This document shows, one piece after another, positions 426 to 10,738 of a stretch of DNA of 64,000 nucleotides. The notes below the pieces were generated by a model. That model was not told the origin of the DNA. It saw nothing but the letters and a program-made list of their open reading frames with translations, and did not search any database. The translations under genes and the position numbers were made by a program. Within the stretch, counting starts at the first letter, position 1. The number at the start of each line of letters is the position of its first letter. Source of the stretch: Novosphingobium sp. G106 (GTDB lineage: Bacteria > Pseudomonadota > Alphaproteobacteria > Sphingomonadales > Sphingomonadaceae); contig NZ_JAHOOZ010000001.1 in the NCBI RefSeq assembly GCF_019075875.1, positions 2,914,001-2,978,000 of the forward strand, read 5' to 3'.

Positions 426-1712
426 CTACCTCCGCGTAAAGGTCAGCGGCAGCGTTTCCAGCGTCTGGCTGGCGAGCGTCGGCAGGTAGGTCAGTTCCTC
501 CACCGGCACCGCCAGGCGGATGTCCTTCAGCCGCCGGATGAACTCTTGCGCCGCCAGCTTGATCTCCATCCGCGCCAGAGCGATGCCGACGCATTTGTGG
601 ATGCCCGAGCCGAAAGTCAGGTTCGCGCCGACGTTGGGCCGCTCGATGTCGAGCTTGCGCGGGTCGGGGAACTTGGCGTCGTCGTCGTTCGCCGAGGCAT
701 ACATCACGCAGATCTGCGACATTGCCGGGATCCTGGTGCCGCCGAGTTCGACGTCCTGCATCGCCGTGCGGAACAGGCCATGGACTGGCGGCTGCAGGCG
801 CAGGACCTCCTCGACGAAGCGGTTCATCACGCGGTCGTTATCGACCTGCGGATGGAGCTCCTCGGCAAGGCCGGGCTGGGTCGCCAGGATCAGCAGGACA
901 TTGGCGATCGCCGCTGCAGTGGTGTCATTGCCAGCAATCAAAAAACCGCGGATCGTCGAGACCTGTTCGTTGCGCGACAGCTTGGGATTCTCCCCGTCGG
1001 CCAGCTCGGCGTGGACGATGTCCGAGATCATGTCCTCACGCGGGTTACTCTCGCGATCCTCGATATAGCGGATGATGAAGTTCTGCAGGTCGCACATCTG
1101 CGCCGCGTTTTCGAGCATGCCCTCGCGTGTCTGCATGCGGCCGATCTGGTCGAGCACCGCCTTGGTCCAGACTGCCACCCGCTCGGCGCCGACTTCGGAC
1201 CAGTCGAAGCCGAGCTGTTCGGAAATGATCCGCGCCGTGAGTGGCCCGCCGATGTCGTTGATGCCGTCGCCGGAGCCGCGCTCGGCCAGCGGCTCGATCA
1301 AGTCGACCACCAGCTGGCGGATGCGCGGCTCCAGATGCTTGACGCGGTGTGCGGTGAAGGCCTTCTCGGTCAGCCGGCGCAGGCGCGTGTGGGCGGGCGG
1401 ATCGATCGCCAGGTCACGGATGAAGCCGCCGCCGTCGCGGTCCATGATCGCGGCGAATTCCTCGATGAAGCCGTTGCCGTAGCGATCCTGGTAACCGTGC
1501 TCGAGCGAATAGGTCTTGTCGTCGTGGAGCACGGCGATCGCGTCGGCGTAGCGGGTGACCAGGTAGAGATCGAGACCGGGGTCGTAATAGACCGGGTCTT
1601 CCCGCCTCAACGCGCGGTAGAACGGGAACGGGTTGTTGCGGATCGCTTCGTCGAGCCGGGTTTCGCCGCCCTTGAGTTCCATCGTGTCAGTTTCGGCCAA
1701 CGTCGTGGTCAT
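426..1712 (-). CDS. Cytochrome P450
   Basis: 428-residue soluble bacterial class P450, a heme-thiolate monooxygenase needing external ferredoxin and reductase. Visible motifs: I-helix oxygen-activation motif AGNDTT (about residue 260), ExxR as EEVLRL (about 300), and the Cys-ligand loop FGSGIHKCVG at about 367-376, matching FxxGxxxCxG. Length is normal for soluble bacterial P450s. Start: ATG at 1712 overlaps the stop of the upstream SDR (ATGA, 1709-1712), implying translational coupling; a longer upstream reading frame exists but runs into that SDR gene. No ferredoxin or reductase gene is nearby, so electron partners must be elsewhere. The context of SDRs, amidohydrolase and CoA ligase suggests hydroxylation of a hydrophobic growth substrate; the substrate is not inferable. 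Confidence 0.95.
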   Translation of the reverse strand: MTTTLAETDTMELKGGETRLDEAIRNNPFPFYRALRREDPVYYDPGLDLYLVTRYADAIAVLHDDKTYSLEHGYQDRYGNGFIEEFAAIMDRDGGGFIRDLAIDPPAHTRLRRLTEKAFTAHRVKHLEPRIRQLVVDLIEPLAERGSGDGINDIGGPLTARIISEQLGFDWSEVGAERVAVWTKAVLDQIGRMQTREGMLENAAQMCDLQNFIIRYIEDRESNPREDMISDIVHAELADGENPKLSRNEQVSTIRGFLIAGNDTTAAAIANVLLILATQPGLAEELHPQVDNDRVMNRFVEEVLRLQPPVHGLFRTAMQDVELGGTRIPAMSQICVMYASANDDDAKFPDPRKLDIERPNVGANLTFGSGIHKCVGIALARMEIKLAAQEFIRRLKDIRLAVPVEELTYLPTLASQTLETLPLTFTRR

Positions 1713-2644
1713 TCGTCCACTCCATCGTAGGCGCGCAGGCCCCAGCCCGAGGTGTCCATCGTCGCCAGGCCGACGACGAGCGCGCCGTCGGTGTCCATGA
1801 CCGTCTGCCAGCGCTCGGCGATCGTCTCGATCGTGTGGTCGCGTTCGTTGAAGCCCGCCGAGCGCGCGATGTAGCAGCGCTGCACCTCGCCGCCGACCGA
1901 ATCGATGCATTCGCCGGTCACCGGGCAGTCCTCATGCGCGAGGAAGGCGACCGCCGGCGAGGACAGCTGCGGCGGCAGGTTCTGCTTGGCACTGGCCAGC
2001 AGCGGGGAGTCGTCCTCCAGCGTTGAAATCACCAGTCGCGTGTAGCCGCCGGGGCTGACCGCATTGACCTTTATTCCCAGCGCCTCGCCCTCGGCGGCCA
2101 GCGCGCGGGTCAGCGACCAGGCGCCGCCCTTGCTCGCGGCATAGGCGGCCTGGTTGGCGAAGCCGGTCATCGAGCTTGAGGTTATGTTGACTATGCGTCC
2201 GTAACCAGCTGATTTCATATGCGGCCAGGCGGCACGGCTGCACCAGACCATGCCCATCAGGTTGATGTCGAAGTGCCGCTGGATGTCGCGCGGGCTGATC
2301 ACGTCGAACGGCGCACCGATCGATATCCCGGCGTTGTTCACAAGGATATCCACAGACCCGAAAGCGTCCAGCGCGGCTTTCACGATAGCCTCGCCGCCCT
2401 CGGGCGTGGCGACGGAATCGGTATTGGCGATGGCCTTGCCACCCGCCGCGCGGATTTCCGCAGCGACCGCCTCGGCCGAAGCGGCGCCAGGATAATGCCG
2501 CTGCTCTGGGTCCGAGCCGATGTCGTTGACCACGACGTTGGCGCCGCGCGCGCCGAGCAGCAACGCATGGGCACGGCCGAGGCTGGGATTGCCGCCGGCG
2601 CCGGTAACGATCGCGGTACGTCCTTCGAAACGCATTTCATTCAT
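1709..2644 (-). CDS. Short-chain dehydrogenase/reductase (SDR)
   Basis: 311-residue NAD(P)-dependent SDR. The Rossmann glycine motif is a variant, TGAGGNPSLGR, with an inserted N-P between the glycines as in (3R)-hydroxyacyl-CoA dehydrogenase-like SDRs. Other motifs are NNAG at about residue 107, the active-site serine in ITSSS and the Y-x-x-x-K pair in YAASK. A C-terminal extension of about 60 residues after the normal SDR fold ends in a Trp/Asp-rich tail. It overlaps the P450 start by 4 bases and follows the amidohydrolase by 18 bases, so it is part of the minus-strand catabolic operon. It probably oxidises a hydroxyl created by the P450 or a hydroxyacyl-CoA; which one is inference. Confidence 0.92.
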   Translation of the reverse strand: MNEMRFEGRTAIVTGAGGNPSLGRAHALLLGARGANVVVNDIGSDPEQRHYPGAASAEAVAAEIRAAGGKAIANTDSVATPEGGEAIVKAALDAFGSVDILVNNAGISIGAPFDVISPRDIQRHFDINLMGMVWCSRAAWPHMKSAGYGRIVNITSSSMTGFANQAAYAASKGGAWSLTRALAAEGEALGIKVNAVSPGGYTRLVISTLEDDSPLLASAKQNLPPQLSSPAVAFLAHEDCPVTGECIDSVGGEVQRCYIARSAGFNERDHTIETIAERWQTVMDTDGALVVGLATMDTSGWGLRAYDGVDE

Positions 2645-2662: not shown

Positions 2663-3835
2663 TTATCCCAATTTATAGACGCGCAGCGCGTTCTCGCTGA
2701 GGATCAGCCGCGCCTCGGCTTCACTCGTGGCATCAAGGACTTCCTGCAAGGCATTGGCGGTATAGCCGAATGTCCCCTCGCTATGCGGATAGTCCTGCGC
2801 CCACATCACGCGGTCGGCACCGAGCTGGTCGAGTAGCCGCAGCCCCACCGCATCGGTCTGGAACGTCGCGTACATGTTGTGATGCCAGTAGTGGCTCGGC
2901 CGGTGCTTCATATCCCAGGAGAACAGCTCGCGGTGCGCGCCGTAGGTCAGCTCGCAGTCCTGCAGCGCGCCGGCGACCCAGTTGATCCCGCCCTCGGCGA
3001 AGACCACCTGGAGCCTGGGGAACCGGTCGAACACCCCGCCGAAGATCAGTTGGCCGAAGGTCCGCCGGAACGGGTCGGCCTGGACGATGAAGAAGGTCCC
3101 GAAGCCACCGCGCCCGCCCGAGGCGGGCACTTCGCCGATGTGGAAGTTGACCGGCAGCCCGGCTTCCTCGGCAATCGCCCAGAATCGGTCCATCGCCGGG
3201 TCCGAATAGTCGATGGCCTCGCCGTCCTTGTTCTTGCCCGGACTGTAGGGGAGCATGAAGCTCTTGAGCCCCAAGTCGACGATCTGGCCGATCGCCTGCT
3301 CGGCCTTCGCCGGATCCCACCAGTTCGAGCAGATGCCGACGCCGTGGAACCGGCTAGATCCACTTTTGGCGCCGCGCCTGTCGAGATCGGCCATATGCGC
3401 GTTGTAGGTGCGGTACATGAGCTCCTGCATTTCCTGGTCAGGATAGCGGATGAAGCCCATCAGGCTGTTGGGATAGACGATCTCGTGGGCGATCCCCTCG
3501 GCGTCGAGATGGCGCTGGCGGACGGCGAAATCGAAGCCGTCGTTCATCACCGAGCGAGCCAGCGCGGTATCGACGTCGACCCCGGTCGGATAGGCTTGCA
3601 GGGCATCGGGAAAGCCCACGCGCCAGTACTTGTCGAACCATACCCGCGGCGCACCAGGACGCATGTTCTGCGGGAAATTCTCGTAGAAGATATCCTCGGT
3701 CAGCTCGACGTGGTTGTCGGCCGAGACCAGCACCAGCCCCTCGGGCAGTTTGCCCGGCGACTGCGGTTCGCGGTCGACGATCATGCCCGCATCGGCGGCC
3801 ACCGCGCTCTGGAATGTCCTGGATTCGTCGAGCAT
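2663..3835 (-). CDS. Amidohydrolase family 2 metal-dependent hydrolase/decarboxylase
   Basis: 390-residue TIM-barrel protein of the amidohydrolase-2 group (PF04909 type), which includes aromatic and C-C-cleaving decarboxylases as well as hydrolases. Visible metal/active-site elements: SADNHVE near the N-terminus (residues about 38-44, the x-x-H motif), a mid-protein His in NFHIGE, Glu in VFAEGG and the C-terminal Asp/His pair in WAQDYPHSEG. An N-terminal extension of about 35 residues precedes the barrel. It sits in the operon between two SDR genes, 24 bases after the stop of the upstream SDR. Role inferred: hydrolysis or decarboxylation of a ring or lactone intermediate of the catabolic pathway. 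Confidence 0.88.
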   Translation of the reverse strand: MLDESRTFQSAVAADAGMIVDREPQSPGKLPEGLVLVSADNHVELTEDIFYENFPQNMRPGAPRVWFDKYWRVGFPDALQAYPTGVDVDTALARSVMNDGFDFAVRQRHLDAEGIAHEIVYPNSLMGFIRYPDQEMQELMYRTYNAHMADLDRRGAKSGSSRFHGVGICSNWWDPAKAEQAIGQIVDLGLKSFMLPYSPGKNKDGEAIDYSDPAMDRFWAIAEEAGLPVNFHIGEVPASGGRGGFGTFFIVQADPFRRTFGQLIFGGVFDRFPRLQVVFAEGGINWVAGALQDCELTYGAHRELFSWDMKHRPSHYWHHNMYATFQTDAVGLRLLDQLGADRVMWAQDYPHSEGTFGYTANALQEVLDATSEAEARLILSENALRVYKLG

Positions 3836-3859: not shown

Positions 3860-4605
3860 TCACCGGCTCGTAATCGCCCCGTCGACGACGATCGCTTGGC
3901 CATGAACGAAGCTGGCGTCGTCGCTGCACAGCCACCAGACCGCGCCGCCGATCTCCTGCGGCTGGCCGATGCGCTGGAGCGGGCTCACCGCGACGAGCTG
4001 TTCGATGATCTCGCCCATGCCGGGCTTCTGCGTCATCGGCGTCTCGATCATGCCCGGGCAGACCGCATTGATGCGGATGCCCTGGCTGGCATATTCGAGC
4101 GCCGCGGCCTTGGTCAGCCCGACGACGCCGTGCTTCGACGCCGAATAGGCGCCGCAAAGGCCGCGCCGCGGATGCCCGCGGTCGAGGCGCAATTGACGAT
4201 CGTGCCGCCTCCGGTCTTGAGCATGGCGTTGACCTCGTGCTTAAGGCAGTTCCACACACCGGTCAGGTTGACGCCGATCACCCGGTCCCAGTTCGAAAGG
4301 CTGCATTCGGCGGTCATCTTGCCCACTTCGCCGTCGATCCCGGCGGCGTTGAAAGCCGCGTCGATCCGGCCATAGGCCGCCACCGCCTGCTCGACCGCGC
4401 TCCGCGCGCTGTCGTCATCGGCGACGTTGCACTGGATGAACTGGCATTCGCCACCGCTCAGGCGGATCGCCGCCTCGGTCTCGCGGCCGCCGGCCTCGTT
4501 CATGTCGATGAGCGCCACGGCGTGGCCCCGGCTGGCGAAAAGCCGCGCCGTCGCCCGTCCGATGCCCGAGCCCGCGCCCGTCACGAAGGCAATCTTGTCT
4601 GCCAT
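3860..4605 (-). pseudogene. SDR family oxidoreductase, interrupted by a one-base frameshift
   Basis: Two overlapping frames together give one complete SDR of about 248 residues. The N-terminal part from ATG 4605 has TGAGSGIGRA, FNAAG (NNAG equivalent) and the serine region NCASTAGIRG. The C-terminal part continues in another frame with GAYSASKHGVVGL (Y-x-x-x-K) and ends at 3860. The break is at about 4150-4160, where adding one T to the run read as GCCTTTGCGGC on the coding strand would restore an uninterrupted AAFCGAYSASKH. This is either a single-base sequencing deletion or a genuine null mutation. It is the first gene of the minus-strand operon (then amidohydrolase, SDR, P450, binding protein) and diverges from the CoA ligase across an operator-like palindrome. 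If the shift is real, the protein is truncated just before the catalytic Tyr and Lys. Confidence 0.85.
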
Positions 4606-4686
4606 TCCGTCCCTCTTCCGTTTTCTCGTTGGCTCCAGACGTCGCACAAGTGGCCCACGGCGCACAGACTCGACTCATCGGGAGCT

Positions 4687-4711
4687 TGGAACGAAGCCTA
4701 TCATCGTTCCA
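4687..4711. promoter_or_regulatory. Operator-like palindrome between SDR operon and CoA ligase
   Basis: Perfect 8-base inverted repeat TGGAACGA (4687-4694) and TCGTTCCA (4704-4711) with a 9-base spacer, in the 170-base divergent promoter region. The same layout, GAACGG-N9-CCGTTC, recurs at 8883-8903 between the TetR gene and the crotonase gene. Right halves aligned as 16-mers differ at only three positions. The size fits a TetR-type or similar dimeric repressor site. That the local TetR protein binds both is inference. Confidence 0.55.
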
Positions 4712-4775
4712 GCCAATCGCGGTGGACCATTGCTGTCCCAGCGGGCAATTTGCCCCCACCCTGAAAGGAATAAGA

Positions 4776-6381
4776 ATGACCAGCGAAGTGCCGCCCTCCA
4801 CGATCCCCGCCATGCTCGCCGGCCTGGTGGCGAGGTGCGGGCAGCATGACGCCATCGCCACTGAAGCGGAGGCGGTGAGCTATGCCGAGCTGAACGAGCG
4901 CAGCGCCCGGATGGCCCGCGCGCTGCTGGCGGCGGGTGCGGGCAAGGGTGCGCGCATTGCGCTGCTTGCACCCGACGGTATCTTCTGGGCGACGGCCTTC
5001 CTCGCTGCGCTGCGTATCGGCGGGCTGATCACCTGCGTCTCGACGATGGTCACGCCCAAGGAGTTCGCGCATATCCTGCGCAACAGCGATACCCAGATCC
5101 TGCTCTCGGCGCGGCGCTTCCTCAGCCACGACTACGCGAAGACCATCGAAGCCGCCTTCCCAGCCCTGACGGGCAGCGGCCCGGGTAAATTGCTACTCGA
5201 AGACGCCCCGTTCCTGCGCTCCGTCTGGCTAGACGATGCCGATGGCGCACCCTGGGCCGGTTCGATCGGTGACCTTCTCGCCCGCGCCGATGCAGTGACC
5301 CCGGCCCTGCTCTCCGCTGTCGAGGCACAAGTCACGCCCGGCGACGAGGCGGTCATCGTCTATACCTCGGGCAGCACTTCGCTGCCCAAGGCCGTGGTGC
5401 ACACGCAGTGGAACATCACCCGCCATCCCCCCTGAGTTGGCGAAGCTTTTCCTGATCGAGCCCGAAGACCGGATGCTGCCGATGCTGCCTGCCTTCTGGC
5501 TCGGCGGCATGGCGATGTTCTTCCAGGTGCTCAGTCAGGGCGCGACGCTTGTCTATCCGGCCTCGCCCGATCTCGAAGTGCTGGTGGAGACGATCAAGAC
5601 CCTGCGCGTCAACCGGCTCAACGGCTGGGGCGACGGCCTCGCCCGCCTACGCAAACTGGCGCCCGAGCGCGGCATCGACATCGACGGCATCGTCGGCCTC
5701 GGCTTCTTCCGCGACGAGAAAGGCGGCCTGATCCCGCCGCAGTTCCAATCGGGCATGCTCGGCATGAGCGAGACTTTCGCGCCGCACAGCGCCGAACCGC
5801 TCAACTACCGCATGCCCGAAGACAAGCCGTTCTCCTGCGGTCGCCCGGTCAACGGCTACGAGCGCCGCGTGGTCGATCCCGAGACCGGCACCGAAGTGCC
5901 CGTGGGCGAGATCGGCGAGCTCCAGCTGCGCGGCGGCGCGCTGATGAGCGGCATGTACAAGCGGCTGCGCGAGGAGGTGTTCACCCCCGACGGCTTCTAT
6001 CCCACGGGCGATCTGGTGCGGATCGACGCCGACGACTGCCTCTATTTCATCGCCCGCCGGAACGACATGATCAAGACGCGTGCTGCCAATGTCTCGCGGC
6101 TCGAAGTCGAAGCGGCAATGAACGAGCTTCCCGAGGTGGAACTCGCCGTCGTCACCGGCCTCGACGACGCCGAGTTCGGCCAGATCGTCGCCGCTGCGGT
6201 CGTACCGGCCGAGGGCGCCTCGCCCACCGAGGACTCGCTGCGCGCCGCGCTGCGCGAGACGCTATCGAGCTACAAGGTGCCCAAGCGGATCGTGTTCATC
6301 GACGCCGGCGACATCCAGCGCACGGCAACCGGCAAGCTCAAGCTCCACGAACTGGGCAAGCTAATCGAGGGTCGGAGTTAG
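4776..6381 (+). pseudogene. Acyl-CoA synthetase (AMP-forming), split by +1 shift in a C6 run
   Basis: Full-length ANL-superfamily acyl-CoA ligase of about 535 residues once one frameshift is corrected. Start ATG 4776 has an AAAGGAA ribosome site 6 bases upstream. Part 1 ends at TGA 5433-5435; part 2 resumes at once and stops at 6381. Motifs: P-loop VYTSGSTSLPKAVVHT (part 1), MSETFAPHS adenine loop, YPTGDLV, the hinge ARRNDMIK and the catalytic lysine region TATGKLKL (part 2). The break is exactly at CCATCCCCCCTGAG: removing one C from the six-C run (5409-5414) turns the stop into an in-frame RHPPELAKLF. It activates a carboxylic acid to its CoA thioester by way of an adenylate. It diverges from the SDR/amidohydrolase/P450 operon. 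The enzyme is inactive if the shift is real; a homopolymer read error seems more likely. Confidence 0.87.
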
Positions 6382-6494
6382 CGCCGCAAAAGGAGCTCCG
6401 GATCGCGCTGAAGGGACTGCGGATTTTTCGCGCCGCCGACGTCTTAACCATAGGGGGCGGGACCGCAGGATCATCGGGTGGAGAAATTCAGGCA

Positions 6495-6656
6495 ATGGGT
6501 CACGCAGCATTGGCGGCAAGGTACGAAGAACTCGGCGTAATCAATCTCCGAGACCAATTTTTCAAGGACAGCCTCATTCGCGAGCAGATCAGGCTCATAG
6601 CTCGGGCAGCGGGCGTCGCTCCGTCAAAAGTGAAGATCAAAATCAACGGAATATAG
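6495..6656 (+). CDS. Small hypothetical protein (53 aa)
   Basis: Short ORF in the gap between the CoA ligase and the convergent LuxR-type gene. It encodes a 53-residue protein beginning MGHAALAARYEELG and ending KVKIKINGI. It is amphipathic, with charged helical segments (RDQFFKDSLIREQIRLI) and a basic tail. A GGAG at about 6479-6483 could serve as ribosome site. No domain is recognised. Composition differs from the flanking catabolic genes, being richer in Ile, Lys and Phe. It could be a small regulator or a chance ORF. Confidence 0.4.
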   Translation: MGHAALAARYEELGVINLRDQFFKDSLIREQIRLIARAAGVAPSKVKIKINGI

Positions 6657-6705
6657 GGCGGTTGGGTCATCGACGGTCAGGTAAAACTGGCCGTCGAGAT
6701 TCACT

Positions 6706-7815
6706 TCACGCCATGATGGCCGCCAGCAGGCGCATCAACGCAGCTTCACCCTCAGTCCCGGTCTTGGCATAGATCGTCTTTATCTGACCGCGGATAGTCT
6801 CGACCGTCACCGAACGCGCTTCGCTGATCTCCGAACGGCTCTTTCCTTCGAACAGCCGGATGGCCACGTCCGCTTCCGCCGCCGTCATGCGATAGAGGAT
6901 GGACAGCAGCGCGGCGATGCCGGCGCGGTCGCGGGCCGGCGGCTTGGCGACGATTATCGCCCGCGGTGCCCTGCCCAGCGACCAGGAATGCGTCGGCAGA
7001 CGAAAGCCTTCGAGAAACAGCGGCTGAGGCCGCTGGAGATTGTCGAGCCGGAGCCGGAAATGGTCCATCCCATCGGCCGCGACGAGCATCGCTGCAGCCT
7101 GCGCCAACGACAGCGGCGTCCCGGCGCCCTCGAGATAGCCGTCGCGCAGCAGGACATGGCCATCCGACAGCAGCTGTTCCGCACTCCGCGTCATGGCCTG
7201 CAGCCGCCCGGCCCCGTCGAGGACATAGGCGGTCACCGCGATCGCCTCGAAGGCGCCCGCGAGCAGCAGCGCCTGTTCGCCTTCCAGCCGCTCCTGCAGC
7301 CTGACCGCTCGACGCGCCGCGACCGATGCTTCGGCGAAGACCTTGCGTTGCCGGGCGTTGGTTCGCCCGTCGCGCCGTTTCCGCAAGGTGGCGAGGCCAA
7401 TGAAGCCAGCCCGATCGACGACCAGATTGGTCTGGCAGCCATAGGGAATGTCGACCTCGTCACACCATTGCACGTAACGGTCTGACTGGAGCAGCGGCAG
7501 AACCGTGTCATAGTCGGCTTCGTGAAGCAGCGCGTCGTAGTTTCCCTGCGCCATACCCTGCACGCTCGCCGCGACGCGGAAGTTCAAGGCCGGCGAGCCG
7601 CCGCCGAGTTCGACGAATTCCCGAAGTCGTCGCTCTTCCAGATCCGTGACGATGTTGAACGGAATGTCCCGCGCACCGCCGACACCGATCAGCTGCCCAT
7701 GGCTGGCCCCTGTCCGGGCGGCCATCTCTGCCAGGGCGTCGGGCCAGCGATCAGGCTCAAGCGCCGCCGCGAGGAAGACGTCGTTCCAGTCCTTGAAAGG
7801 CGTCGCAGATGGCAT
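6706..7815 (-). CDS. LuxR-family transcriptional regulator (C-terminal HTH)
   Basis: About 369 residues. The last 65 residues form a LuxR/GerE-type helix-turn-helix: YRMTAAEADVAIRLFEGKSRSEISEARSVTVETIRGQIKTIYAKTGT (shown in pieces: TAAEADVA, SRSEIS, TVETIRGQIK, YAKTGT). The N-terminal 290 residues have no recognisable receiver, autoinducer-binding or PAS signature, although a weak PAS-like segment (AYVLDGAGRLQAMT) is present. ATG 7815 (MPSATPFKDW) was chosen because upstream codons look non-coding; an alternative ATG is at 7887. There is no clear ribosome site. It lies convergent to the CoA ligase and downstream of the TetR gene, and is a candidate second regulator of the catabolic island. 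Confidence 0.8.
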   Translation of the reverse strand: MPSATPFKDWNDVFLAAALEPDRWPDALAEMAARTGASHGQLIGVGGARDIPFNIVTDLEERRLREFVELGGGSPALNFRVAASVQGMAQGNYDALLHEADYDTVLPLLQSDRYVQWCDEVDIPYGCQTNLVVDRAGFIGLATLRKRRDGRTNARQRKVFAEASVAARRAVRLQERLEGEQALLLAGAFEAIAVTAYVLDGAGRLQAMTRSAEQLLSDGHVLLRDGYLEGAGTPLSLAQAAAMLVAADGMDHFRLRLDNLQRPQPLFLEGFRLPTHSWSLGRAPRAIIVAKPPARDRAGIAALLSILYRMTAAEADVAIRLFEGKSRSEISEARSVTVETIRGQIKTIYAKTGTEGEAALMRLLAAIMA

Positions 7816-7935
7816 GAGCGGAGCTTGTATCACACTGATATTTATAGTTTTCGGAGCGTCCTCTGGTGGCGAGCCGATGTCAACCATCCTGCACTTCAGG
7901 CAAGACGGAACCCGTTCCGAATTGGAGCAAGAAAA

Positions 7936-7964
7936 ATCCAGCCTGACGTGGAGCCAGGCTGGAT
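7936..7964 (-). terminator. Intrinsic terminator for the TetR gene
   Basis: Perfect 10-base stem ATCCAGCCTG (7936-7945) / CAGGCTGGAT (7955-7964) with a 9-base loop. On the minus strand it is followed by TTTTT (complement of 7932-7936). It lies about 130 bases past the TetR stop and before the LuxR-type gene, so it should separate the two transcripts. The rest of 7816-8094 has no gene that I can see. Confidence 0.75.
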
Positions 7965-8094
7965 GAGTGAAAGGACGCTTTCCACGCCCTTCGGGTCGCA
8001 ACCGATCGATAGAAGCGAAACGGGTGGCGCCGCATCCCCCGAGCGGGGGACGTTGCGTATTTGATTTGCCCGCCTGCTATTTTGAAGGGAAAAC

Positions 8095-8835
8095 CTAGCT
8101 GCGTCCCCAGACCACCCCAGCACCCGGCTGCCGCGCGCCGTCGAGCAGGTTGCCGAAGCCCGAGCTTATCCGTCGGTGGAGTTGCTCAAGCGGGAACGGC
8201 CGATCGGACCATTCGACGCAGGATGCGCTGGCGAAAGTCACCAGTTGCTCGGCCAAGTCGCCCAGGTTGGCGTCGGCGCGCAGGATACCGCACTGCTGCT
8301 GCCTGACGAGCAGGCCCTGCATGGCTTTGAGCTGCTTGTCGCGGAAGTGGTAGAAAATCCCGCGCGAGGGGCTGAAGAAGATCAGACAGACCTGGCGGCA
8401 GAACTCGGGCGCACATTCGATCGACTGGAGCCAGCGGCCGATGATGTCGACCACGGCATTGGGATCGCCCGGATCGGGCAGTGCGGTGTGGCCGACGTAG
8501 CGGGTATATTCGCTGATCGCCTCGACGATCGCCTGGTCGCGGGGGCCGACCAGGTTGTAGATCGTCTGGACCGCGTGGCCCGAGGCCTGGGCAATGCCGC
8601 GCACGGTGACGCCATCGAGCCCTTCCTCGGTCAGCAGGCGGCGGATCGTCGCCAGGATCTGTGCGCGGCGCAGCCGCTGGTTGCGGCGTGAGGGGACGGC
8701 GCCAGTCCGGCCCAGCGCGCGCGAATGGAAATGATGGATCGGCGCCGACGGATCGTAGAGAACCGACGGCACTGTCGATGCATAGGTCGGCTGCAACGCG
8801 GCTTGGGCCTGGCTCACCTGCGATCTCGCTCCCAT
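8095..8835 (-). CDS. TetR/AcrR-family transcriptional regulator
   Basis: 246 residues from ATG 8835 (MGARSQVSQ); a further upstream ATG at 8877 would add 14 residues. An unusually long N-terminal extension of about 50 residues precedes the TetR HTH, which reads RRAQILATIRRLL, EEGLDGVTVRGIAQASG and VQTIYNLVGPRDQAI. This is the standard helix 1-4 pattern with Tyr in the recognition helix. The C-terminal ligand-binding domain is all-helical with Cys clusters (APEFCRQVC). Divergent from the crotonase gene; the 148-base region between them contains a GAACGG-N9-CCGTTC palindrome also seen upstream of the CoA ligase. It is therefore probably an autoregulated repressor of the catabolic island that responds to a CoA ester or the substrate (inference). 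Confidence 0.9.
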   Translation of the reverse strand: MGARSQVSQAQAALQPTYASTVPSVLYDPSAPIHHFHSRALGRTGAVPSRRNQRLRRAQILATIRRLLTEEGLDGVTVRGIAQASGHAVQTIYNLVGPRDQAIVEAISEYTRYVGHTALPDPGDPNAVVDIIGRWLQSIECAPEFCRQVCLIFFSPSRGIFYHFRDKQLKAMQGLLVRQQQCGILRADANLGDLAEQLVTFASASCVEWSDRPFPLEQLHRRISSGFGNLLDGARQPGAGVVWGRS

Positions 8836-8882
8836 TGTATTTCTGCCGAAGAACCTAGCGAAACTGGACGAATGCACAAGGA

Positions 8883-8903
8883 GAACGGATGCTTACACCG
8901 TTC
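8883..8903. promoter_or_regulatory. Operator-like palindrome between tetR-type and crotonase genes
   Basis: GAACGG (8883-8888), 9-base spacer, CCGTTC (8898-8903). The same geometry and similar sequence occur at 4687-4711. It overlaps a second inverted repeat, TTCCAGACT (8901-8909) with AGTCTGGAA (8948-8956), so the region holds three related half-sites. The position, between divergent genes and close to both starts, fits an operator controlling both. Confidence 0.55.
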
Positions 8904-8983
8904 CAGACTATTGAATCGCCCGCAGCGAGCAGGAAGACTTAACAGGCAGTCTGGAAGACACCACAGGAAGGACGCGGGACAGC

Positions 8984-9964
8984 ATGCCAGACGACGCAGA
9001 ACGGCCATCGGCCGAAGAGATCGTTCTCTACGAGAAGGACCCCGCCACCAAGATCGCCACGATCACGCTGAGCCGCCCGGGCTTCCTCAACGCGCCGACG
9101 ATCGCCGCGCGCCAACGCTATGCCGACCTCGTGCTGCGCGCCAATGTCGACGACGACGTCAAGGTCCTGGTGATCCGCGGCGTCGGCGAGCACCTGGGCA
9201 GCGGTGCCGACCTTCCCGAGATGGCCGGAATGTTCAACGGCGACGAGAGCTACTCGCCGCTCCCCGAATTCCGCATCGACGGGGAAGATACCGGTGATGG
9301 CGACGTCAAGTATCCGCCACGCGATTCCTATCGCTACATCGCCAACGTCACCAACCTCTATGCCGACGCCCGCTTCGGCCTGCGCAGCCTGCAGGACTTC
9401 AAGAAGATCTCGATCATCGAGTGCAAGGGCTACTGCTACGGCTGGCACTTCTACCAGGCCGCCGATGCCGACATCGTCATCTCCTCGGACGAGGCCTTGT
9501 TCGGCCACAGCGCCTTCCGTTACGTCGGCTGGGCCGCGCGGCAGTGGCAGTGGGCGACGATGATGGGCCTTCGTCCGTTCATGGAGATGGTCTTCACCGG
9601 GCGTCCTTTCACCGCCAAGGAGATGAAGGACCTCCACTTCGTCAACAGCGTCGTCCCGCGCGACAGCCTCGAGGCGGAGACGATGAAATATGCCCTCGCC
9701 TGCGCGCGCAACCGGCCGACCGATACCGTGGTCATGCAGAAGACCTTCTTCGAGGTCTTCAAGCAGCAGCAGGGCGAATACATGGGCTCGGTCCTGTCGG
9801 GCTGGCTCGAAGGCATGCTGCCGCTGGTCAAGGAGGAAGGCGGCGGCATCGCGGTCGATGCCGACACCTTCGAGAAGGGCCTTGCCGCCGCGGTGAAGGA
9901 CAACGACATGCAGTTCCCGCCCGAATGGCGGCTTTCCTACAGAGGACGAGCCCAAAAGACATGA
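8984..9964 (+). CDS. Divergent enoyl-CoA hydratase/isomerase (crotonase) superfamily protein
   Basis: 326 residues, longer than the usual 255-270 because of an insertion around residues 85-115 (GDGDVKYPPRDSY region). Crotonase features: TITLSRPGFLNAPT near the N-terminus, first oxyanion-hole segment HLGSGADLPEM and second segment ECKGYCYGWHFYQAADADIV. The positions that normally hold the two catalytic glutamates of hydratases are occupied by Gln (HFYQAAD) and by a non-acidic residue (FGHSAFRYVG), so ordinary hydration chemistry is doubtful. AAGGAC upstream of ATG 8984 serves as ribosome site. The stop overlaps the next gene's ATG (9961-9964). Probably acts on a CoA ester made by the ligase; hydrolase, lyase or isomerase activity is possible. 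Confidence 0.85.
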   Translation: MPDDAERPSAEEIVLYEKDPATKIATITLSRPGFLNAPTIAARQRYADLVLRANVDDDVKVLVIRGVGEHLGSGADLPEMAGMFNGDESYSPLPEFRIDGEDTGDGDVKYPPRDSYRYIANVTNLYADARFGLRSLQDFKKISIIECKGYCYGWHFYQAADADIVISSDEALFGHSAFRYVGWAARQWQWATMMGLRPFMEMVFTGRPFTAKEMKDLHFVNSVVPRDSLEAETMKYALACARNRPTDTVVMQKTFFEVFKQQQGEYMGSVLSGWLEGMLPLVKEEGGGIAVDADTFEKGLAAAVKDNDMQFPPEWRLSYRGRAQKT

Positions 9965-10738
9965 ACCAGGAAGACATGACCGAAACGCGCGCCGACTTCC
10001 CGGCTTTCCCTCCCGGCCTCTGGCGGCGGATCGTCCTGCTTCCGGGAGACGGTTGGATAGGAGGCGCGCTGGAGGACGACATGCACCGCTTCCATATCCG
10101 GCTCGACCACGCCAATGGCCGCGTGACGAAAGTCGCGGCCAAGGCCGTGCGCCACCCCTGGTCGGCCTGTCCTGGCGCGACCACCTTCATCGCCCGGGAA
10201 CTGACCGGCGAACTGCTGACCGCCGTCGCCGATCGCGATCCCTTCCAGCACTGCACGCACCTCTACGATCTCGCGGTGCTGGCGGCGGCCCATGCCGACG
10301 ACGACGCACCTACCCGCTTCGACATGACGGTCGCCGACCGCGTCGAAGGCCGCACCACCGCGACGCTGGCGGAGAACGGCGCCGAGAAGCTGCGCTGGCA
10401 GCTCGACGGCACCGCAATCGGGGGGCACGGGTGCCCACGCGGGCAGGGACCTGCGCCAGCTTTCCAAATGGAAGCGCGAATTGCCTGCAGTGGAAGCCGA
10501 ATGGGCGACGCTGCTGCGCCGTGCGATCTTCGTGTCAGGCGCGCGGCAATATATCGCGCCTGACCTCGAACAGACCGCGGCGCTGAACGTGGGCCGCATG
10601 GGCGTCTGCTTCAACTACCAGATGCCGCAGGCACAGGACTCCACGCGCACGCCCAACTGGCACAGGGATTTCTCGGAATCGGGCATCGAACCGCTCGCCG
10701 GGCTCGATCCGGCCGCCGAATTCGCCGCTATGGGCTAG
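9961..10738 (+). pseudogene. DUF2889 family protein, interrupted by a +1 shift in a G6 run
   Basis: About 258 residues after correction. The first frame from ATG 9961 carries the DUF2889 signature: DDMHRFHIRLDHANG, then VRHPWSACPGA and HCTHLYDLAVLAAAHA. After the G6 run at 10420-10425 the frame goes wrong, and the correct continuation (GAHAGRDLRQL, then SKWKRELPAVEAEW and on to the stop at 10738) lies one frame over. Dropping one G restores a continuous protein. DUF2889 has no established activity that I know of; conserved His/Cys/Asp residues could bind metal or act in catalysis. It is translationally coupled to the divergent crotonase (ATGA). Here it is presumably a pathway enzyme rather than a regulator (inference). 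Confidence 0.8.

Follow-up and report, generated by a model that had tools for sequence, protein, structure and literature searches.

A predicted palindromic operator associated with a TetR-family gene at the promoters of a catabolic island in Novosphingobium sp. G106

Regulators of the TetR family bind palindromic operators, often near their own gene, and are released from them by a ligand. KstR of mycobacteria, a member of this family, is reported to have the operator TAGAAC-N2-GTTCTA (PMC1995591), EdcR of Caenibius tardaugens is described as a TetR-like estrogen repressor with support from mutants (PMC8700777), and DarR is presented as a TetR regulator that binds as a dimer of dimers to a 20 bp operator of overlapping palindromes (PMC10636190). 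Here we analyse a stretch of 64,000 nucleotides of Novosphingobium sp. G106 (contig NZ_JAHOOZ010000001.1, positions 2,914,001 to 2,978,000; the whole stretch is hereafter the window), which carries a catabolic island with two similar palindromes and a TetR-family gene (hereafter TetR). Among the papers listed by searches of the open-licence PMC literature, no title or abstract opening describes this island or operator. Our data suggest, with a probability of roughly 85%, that the palindromes are operators of a single TetR-family repressor, which would regulate its own gene and control the genes of the island. The elements in question are the following.

4687-4711, no strand: predicted operator site 1, TGGAACGA-N9-TCGTTCCA with perfect arms; full 25 letters TGGAACGAAGCCTATCATCGTTCCA
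8881-8905, no strand: predicted operator site 2, GAGAACGG-N9-CCGTTCCA; whole site GAGAACGGATGCTTACACCGTTCCA
8095-8835, minus strand: TetR-family regulator, candidate repressor and autoregulator (PF00440, predicted TetR fold)

The first-pass annotation had proposed two palindromes with identical spacing and near-identical right halves, each between divergent genes, and the observation was confirmed: the palindromes lie at 4687-4711 and 8883-8903, the latter being the core GAACGG-N9-CCGTTC of site 2, which its outer bases extend to 8881-8905, and in the plus orientation the two sites are identical at 17 of 25 positions. Site 1 is flanked by a short-chain dehydrogenase/reductase (SDR) gene (start 4605, minus) and an acyl-CoA ligase gene (start 4776, plus), about 80 and 65 bp from the respective start codons, and site 2 by TetR (start 8835, minus) and a crotonase gene (start 8984, plus), about 45 and 79 bp away. 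The same 25 letters of site 1 recur in loci L018 and L143 (genome G516), and L019 also has perfect 7-bp arms. A further inverted half-site that had been pointed out, AGTCTGGAA at 8948-8956, is present and pairs with 8901-8909, but L017 and L018, the two closest relatives, have an altered segment here with part of it missing, and the half-site was therefore rejected as part of the operator. No inner half-sites were seen within the spacer.

Conservation was assessed in the loci retrieved by a profile search of genome contigs with a two-sequence TetR alignment (18 loci, L017-L034), from which L033 and L034 (26-29% identity) were dropped, giving a set of 17 with the window included. When palindromes of all hexamers with gaps of 0 to 21 were enumerated in 16 TetR-upstream regions (L018, a near copy of L017, being omitted), TGGAAC-N13-GTTCCA ranked first at 10 of 12 matching letters, with 13 of the 16 regions against peaks of 5-8 in six Markov null sets, and the same site (as GAACGA-N9) came first at 11 of 12, with 6 against 2-3. 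GGAAY-N13-GTTC is found upstream of TetR in 14 of the 17 loci and is lacking there in L019, L030 and L031; on a 16-position count the TetR-upstream sites score 11-14, the best string of L019 (score 11, at 375 bp) not being a TRGAAC site. Site 1 supplied the consensus TGGAACG-N11-CGTTCCA, which, counted as matched at 11 or more of 14 positions, has 26 matches in 13 loci within the 25,263 intergenic bases of the set of 17, site 1 itself being absent from this number as the gene caller classed it as coding. By comparison, 419 other permutations of the half-site gave a mean of 1.03 and a maximum of 7 matches, and the same half-sites at other gaps from 3 to 20 gave 0-5, so that N11 alone stands out. 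Likewise TRGAAC-N13-GTTCYA, whose half-site letters were derived from the sites themselves, has 30 matches in 14 of the 17 loci and at most 3 at any other spacing from 0 to 25. Over 60 bases on either side, identity from locus to locus is mostly 20-40% (79% at most, in the closest pair) and the arms are kept, therefore relatedness does not explain the arms, and the lack of conservation in relatives that the first-pass annotation had named as counting against its proposal is excluded. In some relatives more sites lie upstream of SDRb, AmidoH1, TonB-receptor and PhyH genes.

The presence of the site at individual promoters was followed with a position weight matrix (PWM) trained on 32 sites, a set that did not contain the third site described below, and within the genus TetR itself was found in 13 of 195 genomes (E<=1e-30). 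Crotonase searches of the genus and the order (best 30 at most per search) provided 37 loci (L096-L132): all 10 with an adjacent TetR, the window's own included, carry a site that scores 12.7-28.5 bits and precedes the crotonase by 60-90 bp, and none of the 27 without an adjacent TetR has one, the highest score within 300 bp being 2.9 bits (Fisher p = 3e-9, with the kinship of the loci ignored). Six of these 27 site-less crotonases are 85-89% identical to the window crotonase, closer than several site-bearing ones, and strings of 11.6-15.1 bits do occur at five of the 27 loci, though at a distance of 360-390 bp that probably places them in an adjacent gene. At the CoA-ligase promoter the site is present at 10 of 15 loci of TetR-positive genomes and 0 of 5 of TetR-negative ones, a count that omits L148 (own ligase, matched without its N-terminus). 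Across a 78-kb region the PWM gave 34.4 bits to site 1, 21.4 to a third site and 18.9 to site 2, followed by 14.3 inside the TetR gene and then 8.5. The third site (L014:12390-12414; genome C1:2912390-2912414) lies outside the window, some 1.6 kb to its left, where an aldo/keto reductase gene and an SDR gene diverge; among eight such divergent pairs it occurs in 4 of 5 TetR-positive (21.4, 15.2, 13.7 and 9.6 bits, the copies in the three relatives being the weaker ones) and 0 of 3 TetR-negative cases, and in G398 and G516 its left arm is degenerate with the outer ACTTT/AAAGT retained. The proposal was that a single regulon includes the SDR/amidohydrolase/P450 operon, the CoA ligase and the crotonase/DUF2889 pair and that TetR is its candidate regulator; this recurrence at the same promoters, in step with the TetR gene, supports it. 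The sites, their conservation, exact spacing and promoter placement, and their co-occurrence with TetR are all computed results.

Two observations on crotonase loci stand apart. In L102, one of the 27, TGGAAC-N12-GTTCCA, with a spacer one base shorter, precedes the crotonase by about 70 bp (L102:1408-1431; G468:C12); the TetR of that genome is on another contig, and the next gene is TonB receptor-like by eye. Two crotonase paralogues (G000:C1:2434817-2435767 and C1:1575584-1576528; 66% and 62%) have no adjacent TetR or site and perhaps mark sibling catabolic islands.

The TetR protein itself has an N-terminal TetR_N helix-turn-helix (HTH) domain (PF00440, 29.5 bits against a cut-off of 24), and its predicted structure (mean predicted local distance difference test score, pLDDT, 83.4) comprises nine helices in a TetR fold with the HTH and a C-terminal ligand domain; TetR-family structures rank top in both structure comparisons. 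In the alignment, from which L032 was omitted, the recognition helix SGHAVQT is found in the window, L017-L019 and L021-L028. One arm of the TetR-upstream site reads TGGAAT in L020 (SGLA) and L029 (SGLV), and L030 (SGYS) and L031 (SGVV) have no site upstream of TetR. We take this as a lead from a small set of proteins. A second TetR-family gene (PF00440) is located left of the window at L014:6356-7009, near PhyH, VOC and amidohydrolase genes.

Counts of the motif alone are less telling. The window holds six perfect 8-bp/N9 palindromes, therefore a single one is weak evidence. The genome scan that the first-pass annotation had suggested, for GAACGR-N9-YCGTTC, gave five places in 7,227,927 bases, with six for the reversed control: two of the five are sites 1 and 2, 4.2 kb apart, and the remaining three sit within other predicted genes. 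Random matches with no link to catabolic genes, which the first-pass annotation had named as counting against its proposal if numerous, thus do exist, but at the control rate. With one mismatch allowed there are 111 places (control 171), and TRGAACRR-N9-YYGTTCYA with at most one mismatch has nine in the own genome (control 17), this island accounting for three. TGGAACR-N11-YGTTCYR is found in 85 of the 195 genus genomes (11 of 13 with TetR, 74 of 182 without). As the own-genome count is not enriched, it is position and conservation that make the case. Among the matches listed, 17 own-genome matches outside the island were viewed with their flanks, and 15 of these fall in open reading frames according to a simple gene caller, some of the frames being doubtful. 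The other two may be intergenic: C1:5506642, between amidohydrolase-like and SnoaL-like genes, and C1:3169003, beside an IclR-like gene (all three names by eye).

Several points weigh against the operator reading. The motif by itself is not rare and its own-genome counts do not exceed the reversed-pattern control, the PWM was trained on a set that includes the window sites, several mostly GC-rich motifs tie with the operator when the enumeration is relaxed to 9 of 12 matches, and the second-best strings in the same TetR-upstream regions score 9-12 on the 16-position count. Exceptions also occur among the loci: TetR of L019 has the SGHA helix yet no upstream site, the recognition-helix lead is thin because the other sites of L029 do not show TGGAAT, site-less ligase loci exist in the TetR-positive genomes G451, G499 (2) and G577 (2 of 3), and the last of these also lacks the third site. 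As the 17 loci were found via the TetR gene, some of the co-occurrence follows from the way they were chosen; the searches with crotonase and ligase reduce this bias only in part, and absence at the 27 loci is less telling, since a number of the crotonase genes without a site seem to sit within operons. Finally, a scan of 4500-9100 for sigma-70-like promoters found none.

The last point, which leaves no such promoter against which to place the sites, would also suit the idea that TetR acts here as an activator or dual regulator and not as a repressor, and some TetR-family proteins do activate. We consider this unlikely, since a site in a divergent promoter beside the regulator's own gene is the typical arrangement of TetR repressors. 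EdcR of Caenibius, moreover, is described as repressing (PMC8700777).

A slightly smaller likelihood attaches to the sites belonging to another regulator, with TetR as a bystander. One candidate, the HTH protein encoded at 6706-7815, has its gene between the two sites, but a comparison with 19 other loci, sites included, showed no relative at E<=1e-3, and we reject it as the regulator on this ground; in L018 and L019, TetR directly adjoins the ligase. The other candidate would be an IclR-type regulator encoded elsewhere. The IclR group-2 motifs are given as TGRAACA-N1-2-TGTTYCA (PMC13273656), a half-site similar to that of the island, and IclR-type genes occur in 12 of 12 TetR-positive genomes searched. 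However, TGGAACA or TGAAACA at the IclR-type spacings N0-N3 has at most one match, against 12 for TGGAACA at N11, and an IclR-type operator, with half-sites 1-2 bp apart (N1-N2), is rejected on the same counts. Among the matches listed, G558 alone has an IclR gene no more than 20 kb from TetR, and a weak IclR match of the own genome lies about 20 kb from its TetR; an unlinked regulator keeps a small probability.

That the palindromes are chance matches, or owe their conservation to something else, for instance an EcfG-type sigma promoter, is very improbable: the six perfect palindromes of the window and genome counts no higher than the control would fit chance, but the sites recur at the same promoters with exact spacing amid diverged flanks, the crotonase-promoter result and the intergenic permutation and spacing counts make chance unlikely, and EcfG general stress promoters combine GGAAC and CGTT across 16-17 bp, whereas neither of the two intergenic regions contains a GGAAC-N14-19-[CG]GTT string at any spacer from 14 to 19.

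We return to TetR as a repressor. The island genes are listed below, among them its proposed targets and, separately, the HTH gene discussed above.

426-1712, minus strand: cytochrome P450 of the operon (PF00067)
1709-2644, minus strand: SDRb, second SDR of the operon (PF00106)
2663-3835, minus strand: Amidohydro_2 enzyme (PF04909); best PDB sequence matches PtmU3 and DitZ
3860-4605, minus strand: SDRa, first gene of the P450 operon (PF00106, tblastn in two frames); frame broken at about 4150
4776-6381, plus strand: acyl-CoA ligase (PF00501 on both parts, PF13193); frame broken at about 5432 at a C run
6706-7815: HTH gene between ligase and TetR, LuxR-like by eye, no Pfam match
8984-9964, plus strand: crotonase/enoyl-CoA hydratase-like enzyme, divergent from TetR (PF00378, ECH_1)
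9961-10738, plus strand: DUF2889 gene downstream of the crotonase (PF11136 below cut-off); frame broken at about 10420 at a G run

With TetR lying divergently beside its own site and further sites at the other promoters of the pathway, the arrangement is consistent with a repressor that gives way to a pathway compound. Without inducer, TetR would occupy both divergent promoter regions and the third, some 1.6 kb beyond the left end of the window, and would repress its own gene, the crotonase/DUF2889 pair, the CoA ligase and the SDR-amidohydrolase-SDR-P450 operon, the aldo/keto reductase/SDR pair also being held down, more weakly. The release of TetR, and with it the start of the pathway, would come from a pathway compound, perhaps a terpenoid- or steroid-like acid in the form of its CoA thioester. 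TetR binding to the sites, repression in place of activation, the inducer and the substrate are what we infer from the arrangement. A candidate regulator, operator and regulon are thereby defined for an uncharacterised Novosphingobium catabolic island, offering a way towards the substrate (by asking which compound frees the repressor), help in annotating sibling islands and possibly a biosensor.

With regard to the pathway, the resemblance of the Amidohydro_2 enzyme to PtmU3 and DitZ suggests a terpenoid substrate as far as sequence matches can tell, and a terpenoid- or steroid-like acid is our guess; matches of the P450 are broad, and for ten proteins no NCBIfam match reached its cut-off among the matches listed. 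The frames of SDRa, the CoA ligase and DUF2889 are broken (two of the breaks at C or G runs), by either sequencing errors or recent decay; the ligase frame is open in relatives, and ligase and SDR match as one stretch in L018 and L019. The islands of relatives add Rieske, PhyH, VOC, amidohydrolase and TonB-receptor genes. Plasmid pJCM12687 of Mycobacterium branderi (L154) encodes a 61.5% identical crotonase together with amidohydrolase, PhyH, VOC, SDR and CMD genes and a different TetR gene. Its sole operator-like string above 3.3 bits (14.1 bits, position 19960 of L154) is inside an AveC-type gene, a search of the plasmid collection with the window TetR protein gave no match at E<=1e-5, and the plasmid island seems to be regulated differently. 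Such an enzyme island in an actinobacterium, with a spirocyclase AveC-family gene, hints at a distant transfer of the pathway.

Compared with the described systems, the type of switch is ordinary and the spacing of the two operator halves is less so. EdcR resembles our candidate in being a TetR-like repressor from a sphingomonad that serves a catabolic island in which several promoters have a palindrome in common, but its operator as given, TnnCnnTACnAnTnGTAnnGnnA, is another sequence with another spacing, and by-eye comparison of sites 1 and 2 with that consensus (PMC8700777) led us to reject it. DarR offers a different parallel: the long island palindrome could hold two dimers, whereas the palindromes reported for DarR overlap and no inner half-site was seen here. 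The half-site TRGAAC equals that of KstR as published, but the KstR halves are 2 bp apart against 13 bp here, 11 bp wider or about one helical turn more, and for the KstR-regulon operator (TnnAAC-N2-GTTnnA) the half-site fits and the spacing does not (0 matches at N2, 30 at N13). KstR is absent from the eight PDB matches of TetR by sequence and is one of many TetR matches by fold, and the half-site similarity may be coincidence. We tentatively suggest, as a possibility held with some reserve, that this TetR lineage reads KstR-type half-sites (TRGAAC/GTTCYA) at N13 instead of N2 and with no inner half-sites, a distinct operator architecture in which two dimers would each sit on one outer half or an unusually wide dimer would span both, and which would be the hallmark of a pathway regulon in Novosphingobium and in a small number of other assemblies, most of them unclassified. 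How TetR dimers read wide palindromes is a small question made testable by these KstR-like halves with their constant distance of 13 bp.

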